From NCBI GenBank assembly GCA_017481875.1, contig JAFUOP010000013.1, forward strand, positions 1 through 32,453: DNA of 32,453 nt, in the 5' to 3' direction. Positions within the stretch are counted from its first letter, which is position 1, and each line of letters opens with the position of its first letter. Source of the stretch: Bacteroidaceae bacterium. Lineage in GTDB: Bacteria; Bacteroidota; Bacteroidia; Bacteroidales; Bacteroidaceae. Positions 1 to 32,453 of the stretch are shown one piece after another. The translations under genes were made by a program, and so were the position numbers. The notes below the pieces were generated by a model. That model had not been told where the DNA came from. It made no database searches and was given only the letters and a program-made list of their open reading frames with translations.

Positions 1-939
1 GCGTTCGGGGATTGCACCGGCCTCACAGATGTATATTGCCATGCAACAACAGTACCGGAAACAAGCAGCAATGCTTTTAATAATTCTAATGCAACAAATG
101 CAACCCTCCACGTGCCGGCAACAGCAATAGAGAGCTACCGCACCACCGCACCATGGAGCGAGTTTGGTACTATAGTTGCCATTGAAGGAAGTGAAGAAGA
201 TGGCGACGAGCCCTCAATTACAACCGGCGAAGCCATAGACCTTGGCTTGCCCAGCGGTATTAAGTGGGCAAGCTGCAATATAGGTGCCACAGCACCCGAG
301 GAGTACGGTGGCTACTACGCTTGGGGAGAGACCGAGGAGAAAGATTCCTACGATTGGAGCACATATAAATGGTGCAACGGTACAAAATATTCTATGACCA
401 AATACTGCACCAATAGCATTTATGGCACAGTAGATAATAAAACCACTCTCGACCCTAAAGACGACGTAGCCCACGTAAAATGGGGCGGTAACTGGCGTAT
501 GCCCACCCTTACCGAGCAACAAGAGCTCATAGACAATTGCACCTGGACCTGGGCTACACGTAACGACATAAACGGTTACATTGTTACGGGCCCCAATGGC
601 AACAGCATTTTCCTGCCCGCAGCGGGCTTCCGCAGCCAAAAAGCGACCAAGACGCAAGGTTCTGCGGCTCACTATTGGACGGGAAGTTTGAATGACGACA
701 ATAGCAGTGCATTTACATTCTACTTTTATAACAAAGGGCACAGATGTATTTCCAATTATAGAGATCGTGGCCACACAGTCCGCCCCGTTTACGACGATGG
801 CAGTTCAACCTCCATTGAAATTATCACACCCGAGGTGAACAACGAGAATACAATATACGACCTGCGCGGGCAAAAATTAACAGAGATAACCGCACCCGGC
901 ATATATATTGTAAACGGCAAGAAGGTTATTGTGAAATAA
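1..939 (+). CDS. BspA-type LRR / FISUMP-like surface protein, 3' part (5'-truncated)
   Basis: The frame is open from the first base, so the N-terminus lies outside the window; 312 residues are visible. Residues 1-60 are the tail of a BspA/LRR_5 domain (AFGDCTGLTDVYCHATTVP, then a NATLHVPATAIESYRT cap). Residues about 76-268 form a FISUMP-like module with the Bacteroidales signature DLGLPSGIKWASCNIGA and EEYGGYYAWGE, ending in HTVRPV. The last 28 residues (YDLRGQKL, GIYIVNGKKVIVK) resemble the short C-terminal tail of many Bacteroidales secreted proteins and may be a sorting signal. The likely role is cell-surface or secreted binding or adhesion; the ligand is unknown. A GTG at 112 is not a credible start because homologous LRR sequence continues upstream of it. 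A palindromic terminator follows 18 bases after the stop. Confidence 0.85.
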   Translation, partial: AFGDCTGLTDVYCHATTVPETSSNAFNNSNATNATLHVPATAIESYRTTAPWSEFGTIVAIEGSEEDGDEPSITTGEAIDLGLPSGIKWASCNIGATAPEEYGGYYAWGETEEKDSYDWSTYKWCNGTKYSMTKYCTNSIYGTVDNKTTLDPKDDVAHVKWGGNWRMPTLTEQQELIDNCTWTWATRNDINGYIVTGPNGNSIFLPAAGFRSQKATKTQGSAAHYWTGSLNDDNSSAFTFYFYNKGHRCISNYRDRGHTVRPVYDDGSSTSIEIITPEVNNENTIYDLRGQKLTEITAPGIYIVNGKKVIVK

Positions 940-30649: not shown

Positions 30650-31996
30650 TTAGAAGCGGAAATCAACACCAACAGCCACGTTGTATGTCTTGCGCATGTA
30701 GTGTGAAGCACCGCTCACACCGTGAGCATAGTTGGCATAGCAAGCACCGAAGTTCAAATCCCAGTTCTCATTGAAGCTGTACTTACCACCGGCACCAACC
30801 ATAAATGAGTCGTCGATGAAAGAAATATCGCTCAAGTAGCTCTCATTCACACCAAAATCGCTAAACTGTACACCGGTAGAGAGAAGGAGCTTGTCAGTAA
30901 CCTTAACCTCTACACCGGCGAGCAACTCGTATGTGTTGCGGCTCAAAGTCTTCATTGTGTTAGCCTTGCTCATCAAAGATTCAATTGTGGCGTCCTTGTC
31001 AAAGTAATATGTTGTAGCACCCATAACCTTCACGCGGTCGCAGATATCATACGAAGCACCTACTGAAAGTTTTGCGGGAGCATCGTTGCGGAACTTTACA
31101 CCATCGCTCAATGTGGGTAGAGCAGCCAACAATTTCTCCGATGTAGTACCCTTTGTATCGTTCTCTATAATGTTAATTGCGCGGAATTCATACTTAACAC
31201 CCAAGTTAAAACCACCCACTTTGTAATCAACACCTACAATGGGAGCAAAAGCAACACCGGTTTGAGTCAATTCAAGCTCATAGTTGGGAGCAGCACCTGC
31301 CACAACAGCCTCATAAGGAGCAAGTTGAGGAATTGCGCTCATAGGAACCTCTGCCACACCTGTATTATACATAACACCGTTGGGGAAAGATGTCAAAATA
31401 GATCCCTCATATGTAAGGCTTGTATAATTGGCACGAAGACCACCGTAAACCGAGAAATTATCATTTACCTTATAGGCTGCACCAAGCTGCAAGCTGAAAA
31501 GATACTGTGTAGATGTAAAAGTAGAAGAGGTGCTGTAGCCTGTAACACCGGCAAGAGCGGGGTTCACAGCAGCCAATCCTTGAGCAAACAAGCCGTTAAC
31601 CATATTATTGAAAACAGGGAGACCATTATCAAAATTAGCCTCGCCACCACCACCGGGCATACCAAAGAAAGCACTGAAAGCCCAATCGCCAGTCTTATAT
31701 GTAGCGTGGAAAGTAGGCATAATGGGAACATAAACCTCACCCTTATACTCTTTACCGGCATTTAATACATCACGGTCCTGCCAAATCATCTGCCAGTTAG
31801 CAGAAACGGTCCAACCCTCCTTCAAGAAAGCTGTACCGGCAGGGTTAAAGTAAACAGCATCTGCGTCCAATGAAGCATAACGAGCAGGGTTACGAACAAA
31901 AGCAGCACTCTGGTTTGTGTTTGTCAAAAGACCACCTGCAAACGATGCGATTGCAAATGAAGCTACTGCAATAGTAGAAAAAACTCTTTTAATCAT
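30650..31996 (-). CDS. OmpP1/FadL-type outer-membrane protein
   Basis: 448 residues. A signal peptide (MIKRVFSTIAVASFAIASFA) precedes the FadL-like plug region: NQSAAFVRNPARYASLDADA and VYFNPAGTAFL. About 14 amphipathic strands follow, and the chain ends in VAVGVDFRF with terminal Phe for barrel insertion. FadL-family barrels carry hydrophobic compounds such as long-chain fatty acids or aromatics across the outer membrane; the ligand here is unknown. It stands alone with its own promoter, which is overlapped by a 12-bp-arm dyad, and its own terminator. Absence of fatty-acid catabolic genes nearby leaves the substrate open. Confidence 0.85.
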   Translation of the reverse strand: MIKRVFSTIAVASFAIASFAGGLLTNTNQSAAFVRNPARYASLDADAVYFNPAGTAFLKEGWTVSANWQMIWQDRDVLNAGKEYKGEVYVPIMPTFHATYKTGDWAFSAFFGMPGGGGEANFDNGLPVFNNMVNGLFAQGLAAVNPALAGVTGYSTSSTFTSTQYLFSLQLGAAYKVNDNFSVYGGLRANYTSLTYEGSILTSFPNGVMYNTGVAEVPMSAIPQLAPYEAVVAGAAPNYELELTQTGVAFAPIVGVDYKVGGFNLGVKYEFRAINIIENDTKGTTSEKLLAALPTLSDGVKFRNDAPAKLSVGASYDICDRVKVMGATTYYFDKDATIESLMSKANTMKTLSRNTYELLAGVEVKVTDKLLLSTGVQFSDFGVNESYLSDISFIDDSFMVGAGGKYSFNENWDLNFGACYANYAHGVSGASHYMRKTYNVAVGVDFRF

Positions 31997-32206: not shown

Positions 32207-32245
32207 CACCTGGGCGCAAATACAAAAGATGACGGGTACTACCGA
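32207..32245. repeat. 39-bp direct repeat, copy 1
   Basis: Identical over 39 bases to 32415-32453, starting CACCTGGGCGCAAATAC and ending GGGTACTACCGA. The distance from start to start is 208 bp. Bases before the two copies differ. Confidence 0.9.
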
Positions 32246-32253
32246 AATGCAAT

Positions 32254-32287
32254 AAAAAAAGCAAGAGCAATTAATAATCACTCTTGC
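32254..32287 (-). terminator. Minus-strand terminator after the tRNA-like tail
   Basis: GCAAGAG at 32261-32267 pairs with CTCTTGC at 32281-32287; the minus strand then runs into seven T (32254-32260). It implies transcription from the right, through the tRNA-like sequence. Confidence 0.7.
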
Positions 32288-32290
32288 CGT

Positions 32291-32421
32291 TGGTCGGGGC
32301 GACAGGAAAGCGACAAGCTTAGACAATGCGAGCAGCCTATGGTCGCGTGCAGCACAGACGAAGTTTGTGCCACGCGGGTGGCGATAAGCGAGCATTGTCA
32401 ATCGAACCTGCGACCACCTGG
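32291..32421 (-). other. tRNA(Pro)-like 3' half split by a structured insert
   Basis: On the minus strand, CCAGGTGGTCGCAGGTTCGAT reads in two pieces: CCCAGGTGGTCGCAGG then TTCGAT, as in the anticodon stem, variable loop and T arm of a proline tRNA; after about 95 inserted bases it resumes as TCCTGTCGCCCCGACCA, the T-stem and acceptor 3' strand with CCA. No acceptor 5' strand, D arm or anticodon loop is present, so it is not a working tRNA. The insert (about 32307-32400) folds into nested helices: GACAATGC 32322-32329 with 32392-32399, CGCGTG 32344-32349 with 32371-32376, and GCACAGAC 32352-32359 with 32363-32370 around GAA. The outermost pairing is GGTCG (32292-32296) with CGACC (32411-32415). 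It may be a structured RNA, a tRNA-derived repeat, or an integration-site relic. Confidence 0.5.
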
Positions 32422-32453
32422 GCGCAAATACAAAAGATGACGGGTACTACCGA
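32415..32453. repeat. 39-bp direct repeat, copy 2, ending at the window edge
   Basis: Same 39 bases as 32207-32245. The last base of the identity is the last base of the window, so the true repeat may be longer and the 208-bp unit may be tandem. Confidence 0.9.

Follow-up and report, generated by a model that had tools for sequence, protein, structure and literature searches.

The question raised by this locus is what forms the repeat at which the contig ends and what has been inserted into it. The window, meaning the whole 32,453-nucleotide stretch that was analyzed, is the entire contig C48 of a Bacteroidaceae genome of 2.02 Mb (48 contigs, 75.8% complete). Identical 39-bp copies lie at positions 32207 to 32245 and 32415 to 32453, with a start-to-start spacing of 208, as the first-pass annotation had described, and an exact pair at such close spacing is not due to chance. 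The window end cuts off the second copy simply because contig C48 goes no further. What follows position 32453 is not different sequence: the second 39-mer continues on the plus strand for 62 further bases of the repeat, identical in contig C35. Window positions 32207 to 32307 (101 bp) are 100% identical to C35:103-203, and the true repeat length is therefore 101 bp rather than 39; the remaining 107 bp of the 208-bp unit contain an insert, which we refer to as E. The final 141 bases of the window also equal the initial 141 of C35, and exact overlaps of this length typically mark a de Bruijn graph break. The suspected tandem repeat at the contig end is thus borne out by both the 101-bp identity and the 141-bp overlap. 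Two congeners support the link between C48 and C35: in genome G016 (locus L153), the gene following the tRNA-Pro region has a start that reads like that of the window's outer membrane transport protein gene (OMPP1/FadL type; 30650 to 31996, minus strand), and in G023 (L152), the flanking sequence is similar to that of the window.

Read along the minus strand, C35 and the window carry an intact tRNA-Pro, a terminator, a decayed tRNA-Pro with an insert in its T loop, the same terminator again, the broken-off 5' part of a third tRNA-Pro copy, unrelated sequence, and the OMPP1/FadL-type gene. ARAGORN identified the intact gene as tRNA-Pro(TGG) at C35:187-263 (minus strand) and found no tRNA in the window; on this ground the window was judged to contain neither a tmRNA nor a functional tRNA, the complete cloverleaf being confined to C35. 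The decayed copy, pseudo-copy 1, comprises on the minus strand a degenerate 5' part with D and anticodon arms (32415 to 32453, the second 39-mer, assigned by comparison with tRNA-Pro of congeners), the 5' strand of the T arm (GTCGCAGGTTCGA, 32402 to 32414, compared with the intact tRNA), and a tRNA-Pro-type 3' end (CCTGTCGCCCCGACCA, 32306 to 32291). Behind it lie a terminator-like hairpin and T run (32254 to 32288, minus strand), whose sequence is identical behind the intact tRNA-Pro in C35. The first 39-mer (32207 to 32245, minus strand) is the 5' part of the third, truncated copy. The tRNA(Pro)-like 3' half, its T loop cut by about 95 bases, and the terminator noted in the first pass are all present, and the minus strand of the whole 214-nucleotide window end folds moderately better than shuffled sequences (z, -1.95). 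The suggested array of small-RNA genes with their own promoter did not hold up, because what looked promoter-like is a decayed stretch of tRNA: the 39-mer aligns with the D/anticodon part of congeners' tRNA-Pro pseudo-copies, and TATTTGCG appears better read as a decayed anticodon arm (ATTTGCGCC versus TTTGGGACC in the intact tRNA-Pro).

The tRNA-Pro region was compared across the genus. A 420-bp query from the end of C35 matched 40 of 44 genomes of the genus, a figure that includes genomes matching insert E alone, and 28 tRNA-Pro loci besides that of the genome itself were compared. Eight have one or two more full tRNA-Pro starts downstream (L156, L158, L159, L161, L170, L172, L173, and L174, with L161 and L173 running off the contig), which makes two or three full tRNA-Pro(TGG) genes in tandem in these congeners. 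Another six (L162, L164, L166, L167, L171, and L179) carry one to three insert-free units of a tRNA-Pro 3' half with its terminator. L153 has a single truncated copy, and L152 has two units, each with a T-loop insert as in the window. Twelve loci are without further copies, with just 31 to 303 bp of sequence compared in five of them; one of these five (L155) holds, by eye, a decayed piece of E. In these half units, the 5' parts degenerate in a common pattern that corresponds to the 39-mer stretch, and the 3' half is nearly unchanged. The 208-bp unit resembles tRNA pseudogenes and tandem tRNA arrays in being tRNA-Pro derived, adjoining an intact gene, and having its terminator, but it differs in that several congeners keep an intact 3' half and terminator with a shared 5' degeneracy, and in that the window copy is split by E. 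The tandem 3'-half units of the six loci may be pseudogenes homogenized by conversion, or they may serve some use. Because G033, the sole genome of the genus without a hit to the model of E described below, still has a 3'-half unit (L166), the tRNA array does not need E.

Integration that targets tRNA genes leaves a duplicated tRNA 3' end, and the tRNA-Pro 3' halves with terminators at those same six loci, in one to three units each, match this expected trace. The tRNA part might accordingly be what a succession of integrative elements left behind after using the tRNA-Pro 3' end as attachment site, with E as an unrelated later passenger. We consider this very unlikely: the units share a degenerate 5' part and so look like decayed whole tRNA copies, the same locus in other congeners holds full tRNA-Pro genes in tandem, and no integrase was noticed beside it. 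The tRNA part is an ordinary tandem duplication followed by decay. The scar of an element inserted at a tRNA gene, also proposed in the first-pass annotation, is likewise not what we find, as the insertion lies in the T loop of a pseudo-copy and the functional tRNA is intact next door. The tandem repeat, its derivation from a tRNA, and the insertion therefore stand from that interpretation, and the small-RNA gene array and the integration scar are not supported; what it missed is that E belongs to a structured repeat family found across the genus.

E occupies about 95 bp of the T loop (32307 to 32401), with boundaries taken from an empty/filled pair: the same site is empty in G016 (L153) and filled in G023 (L152), where about 96 bp stand between TTCGA and the following CTCTC. 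In this one pair, 0 to 3 bp are lost and a target site duplication is absent; other E sites show, by eye, host repeats that differ in length and are either direct or inverted. The inserts of the window and G023 share their junctions and most of their sequence. We assign E to the plus strand, the strand whose fold retains the conserved G-U pairs. Its predicted fold begins with a small 5' hairpin, H1 (AAGC-GACAA-GCTT, 32308 to 32320; AAGCC-ATA-GGCTT in G023), followed by a nested main hairpin, H2 (32322 to 32399, arms GACAATGC and GCATTGTC), which encloses GA opposite GA, a 3-bp helix, a GUCGC stem, a 2-nucleotide bulge, and an apical stem with a triloop. The conserved 55-nucleotide core of H2 (32330 to 32384, plus strand) scores 80.6 bits against model R1, which has 55 positions and 18 pairs and was built from nine copies; further copies in the genome were first found by BLAST.

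The model yields 17 hits in the genome itself at an E value of <0.001, representing 16 copies since one lies in the contig overlap, with one more weak match at an E value of 0.04. Six of the 17 hits fall no more than 320 bp from the end of a contig (C40, C33, C35, C48, and C21), two of these six being a single copy on either side of the C48/C35 overlap, and the family probably breaks assemblies. Across this gut-bacterial genus, there are at least 976 hits in 44 genomes, a lower bound given that at most 130 candidates were scored per genome; 43 of the 44 genomes are positive, with 1 to 76 hits and a median of 18. In a sample of the family, 21 of 301 genomes are positive at an E value of 1e-5, all from the same genus, and the 280 genomes from 29 other genera gave no match at that threshold (19 candidates scored per genome). 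In a sample of the order, 3 of 393 genomes are positive (14 candidates scored per genome), namely, the genome itself and two of another family. An exact degenerate pattern matched 42 stretches over GTDB genomes, all titled as Bacteroidaceae or Bacteroidales MAGs and 39 of them with ruminant sample names; the same pattern had no match in viral contigs, and the window copy had none by blastn in plasmids or phages. No Rfam 15 family overlapped E at the window end at E values of up to 5, and at eight further loci (L053, L036, L028, L058, and L054 among them, and L014, which had no match of any kind), only tRNA, 5S, and LSU rRNA matched at the gathering threshold; among the Bacteroidetes RNA motifs that PMC2864571 lists, these scans cover those adopted into Rfam. 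We recognized no paper describing the family in the open-access literature searched, and E apparently represents an undescribed, genus-centered structured repeat family, akin in kind to REPs and MITEs.

The fold of E is supported by covariation. In 60 distinct rows, 98.4% of cells pair, changes on both sides of a pair number 196 versus 45.5 ± 8.6 in shuffled alignments, and the covariation score is 0.518 versus 0.180 shuffled, although this alignment was fitted to the model, which favors such a result. The nine founding copies alone show 13 both-side changes versus 3.6. Among 61 copies of less than 85% identity read at fixed offsets, several pairs occur as three or four pair types with 97 to 100% pairing, and the outer-arm pairs are weaker (51 to 85%). 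Two wobble pairs, one U-G and one G-U, are near invariant (61/61 each; 59/60 each in the fitted alignment), and a C·A opposition at the arm base is found in 41 of 61 copies. The outer arms vary between copies, and among 80 representatives, the longest helix averages 6.0 within a copy versus 4.9 with another copy. Imperfect terminal inverted repeats, a MITE criterion, are present. The sequence around E is structured as well: on the H1 side, the 36 nucleotides before it fold at a mean of -7.0 kcal/mol versus -3.0 for mononucleotide shuffles (66 of 80 representatives), the 3' side folds at -4.5 versus -3.2 kcal/mol, and the two flanks pair with each other over 3.26 bases versus 1.99 shuffled (maximum of 500 shuffles, 2.68).

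The placement of E relative to genes is strongly biased. From 156 nonredundant copies, we took the 60 with 700 bp on either side, of which four were called inside an open reading frame (L035, two of L036, and L027). At L035 and L036, a long codirectional gene ends 21 to 117 nucleotides upstream of the copy, so the overlapping frame is probably spurious; the L027 copy lies behind a 5S gene. The upstream gene is codirectional in 53 of the remaining 56 copies, a count in which copies of the same array and orthologous sites are not independent. Upstream same-strand frame ends form 53 clusters, and the nearest copy lies 3 to 36 nucleotides behind the stop codon in 25 of them; having been drawn from same-strand frames only, with some clusters probably spurious, this set is no test of strand. 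The window copy is an exception to the bias, being antisense to both neighbors. Upstream genes named by NCBIfam are ribH, gdhA, proB, and yebC, with guaA also supported; two others we take to be dnaG-like and murF-like, as they had no NCBIfam match at the cutoff used. The dnaG-like gene has a model hit at 9 of 30 loci and none at 21. Copies often follow a hairpin and form arrays, some of which repeat the host 3' end (murF-like L126 and gdhA L120). At three further loci (L016:1212-1266, L130:351-405, and L132:290-344), the copy follows a 5S gene, intact or cut, and is antisense to it, within a palindrome that by eye resembles the 5S 3' end. Copies in similar palindromes occur at L014:1141-1195, where no 5S gene was found, and at L054:1501-1555, where none was seen. 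Some sites are common to several congeners, indicating that some of the copies are old and were inherited.

Among 29 guaA-type loci, E is present at 26 and absent at L191, L196, and L210. The E-less L196 keeps an AAAAAAC-nnn-GTTTTTT hairpin, and in L184, the same hairpin directly precedes E. At several guaA loci, the hairpin before E extends into the coding end, with its 3' arm after the stop codon, and the stop preceding the mirrored arm is TGA in L198 and L199 and TAA in L190. Near-perfect palindromes span the guaA stop codon at L182, L189, L190, L198, and L199, with the mirrored arm looking as if copied from the stop codon that it follows. Both genomes of the other family have their best copy behind guaA, at 37 (G697) or about 50 (G464) nucleotides, in a shared local gene order. 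G464 has a second copy after this one, and G697 has two weaker copies about 1 kb farther along, beyond the next open reading frame. The simplest reading is that guaA and its tail passed between families. GuaA there (435 amino acids) is matched fully by the C-terminal GMP synthase models and over 76 of 190 positions by the GATase domain. A GMP synthase that lacks most of its glutaminase domain recurs at L246:3698-5005 (minus strand), L247:3050-4357 (plus strand), and L181 to L208, nearly always tailed by E.

Repeated host 3' ends in the murF-like and gdhA arrays, host sequence mirrored in H1 after the stop codon (guaA at L198 and L199 versus L190), and pairing flanks would all suit a passive palindrome that is copied with its host flanks by replication template switching or slippage at hairpins, with no dedicated enzyme. 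We regard this as improbable: covariation over dozens of pairs, together with conserved unpaired bases, points to a selected fold, and local slippage would not suffice to scatter copies over many unrelated loci. Alternatively, E may be a structured RNA element of 3' untranslated regions that binds protein, stabilizes, or terminates, with selection keeping the sense orientation and recombination spreading copies. The codirectional upstream genes, the near-invariant U-G and G-U pairs, and the occupancy of guaA-type genes agree with such a role, and the sense bias and G-U pairs keep this reading alive. However, the upstream genes are functionally unrelated (ribH, gdhA, proB, yebC, and guaA), E often follows a terminator-like hairpin and so may be little transcribed, copies in the tRNA pseudo-copy and behind 5S genes are antisense to those RNAs, dnaG-like loci are mostly without a hit, and the copy number ranges from 0 to 76. 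On balance, we find an RNA function of this sort rather unlikely.

We favor, with moderate confidence, the reading of E as a nonautonomous, REP/MITE-like structured mobile element that prefers hairpins and here sits in a decaying tRNA-Pro array. The claim of mobility rests on the dispersal of copies, the one empty/filled pair, and the differing copy numbers; we infer that a trans-acting enzyme moves E, that single-stranded DNA is the recognized form, and that unequal exchange multiplies it. In such a scheme, tandem decayed tRNA-Pro copies with their terminator would have arisen downstream of the intact tRNA-Pro(TGG) (C35, minus strand), and E, with H1 followed by the nested covarying H2, would have entered the T loop of one decayed copy. 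Some factor would recognize the folded single strand, most likely of DNA, and place E beside or inside existing hairpins, such as the terminator after a stop codon, the T arm of a tRNA, or a palindrome behind a 5S gene. Unequal exchange at host sequence repeats adjoining E could then produce arrays such as the window unit and the two G023 units. Several observations weigh against a mobile element: no mobilizer is linked in the loci examined, the L153/L152 pair has no target duplication, the sense bias behind genes also fits RNA function, and invariant G-U pairs are typical of RNA. In addition, H1 at some loci looks as though it was made with the insertion rather than pre-existing, as the coding end is mirrored behind dnaG-like and guaA genes. 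A bolder and tentative possibility, which we rate as less probable, is a new class of folded mobile unit of about 100 nucleotides, recognized through its conserved bulges and wobble pairs, for which an enzyme would insert strand specifically behind or into host hairpins, form a new palindrome (H1) by copying the host flank, and allow the unit to cross families as a guaA passenger.

A mobilizer was sought among transposases and reverse transcriptases. The genome itself, at 76% completeness, contains no Y1 transposase and no RVT_1 domain; in the genus, Y1_Tnp occurs in 5 of 44 genomes and RVT_1 in 18. E is absent from all five Y1 loci and from the five reverse transcriptase loci examined among the 25 RVT_1 matches listed, and by eye, the open reading frames between six pairs of copies include no obvious recombinase that could mark an autonomous parent. 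The five genomes with Y1 have higher hit numbers (P = 0.03, uncorrected, from a pair of tests), and hit numbers with and without reverse transcriptase compare at P = 0.11. A RAYT/REP system was rejected because Y1 genes are not linked to E, as was a reverse transcriptase or group II intron, given no link to E among the reverse transcriptase loci examined.

Several known systems resemble E in part. Like REPs and MITEs, E is a short, noncoding palindrome that is dispersed and carries no gene. REPs of the GTAG and CGTC classes are likewise described as dispersed structured palindromes outside genes (PMC3733652). E differs in its length of about 95 bp, its H1 and nested H2, its strong sense bias behind stop codons, and its ends: among 61 aligned copies, no GTAG tag is shared, the ends being mostly TCGACAA or TAGACAA, and TTGTCAA, and none carries the CGTC end tag, that class being a palindrome of 20 to 40 bp. 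The GTAG class has a Y1 tyrosine transposase (RAYT), in contrast to the E-free Y1 loci here. CGTC-class REPs are described as having no dedicated transposase and as occurring in Bacteroidetes among others, some inside larger palindromes (PMC3733652). Head-to-tail arrays are frequent for E, whereas head-to-tail dimers are reported as negligible or underrepresented for REPs (PMC3733652). The BrickBuilt MITE of Porphyromonas gingivalis shares with E a noncoding, intergenic, multicopy nature, a narrow host range, and tandem repetition (PMC4596501). It is described, however, as having terminal inverted repeats like those of the IS5 family, and target duplication is given as usual for MITEs (PMC4596501), in contrast to the single empty/filled pair of E. 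In hairpin placement, E resembles group IIC introns, which are placed directionally at terminator hairpins, but no intron domains were recognized by eye and no reverse transcriptase was found in the genome itself or linked to E at the loci examined. In its position behind stop codons and its head-to-tail arrangement, E resembles integron attC sites, structured hairpins just behind the stop codon, but no gene cassettes were noticed between the six pairs of copies, and the most conserved part of E is apical.

Structured repeats that follow a strand rule, and are so far mobilizer-less, offer a practical route to single-strand recombination enzymes or to RNA signals at 3' ends. One genus with 44 genomes, 0 to 76 hits, filled and empty sites, and a covarying structure makes both target choice and mechanism testable. 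The repeats also break assemblies and split tRNA-derived sequence, misleading annotation.

Two further groups of genes were noticed. The gene before position 1115 of contig C10 (L012) has a copy behind its stop codon; a window gene at 112 to 939 (plus strand), behind which none was seen, shares with it a similar lectin-like C-terminal motif, YW..SL...GHTVRPV. A diversity-generating retroelement, prompted by the C10 copy, was rejected, as no RVT_1 was found in the genome itself (76% complete) and the other upstream genes are unrelated. Short peptides ending in GNLW(N/S/A)K or similar repeatedly have E just behind the stop codon (L021, L041, L046, L112, L134, L143, and L067), with variant ends at L080 and L085.
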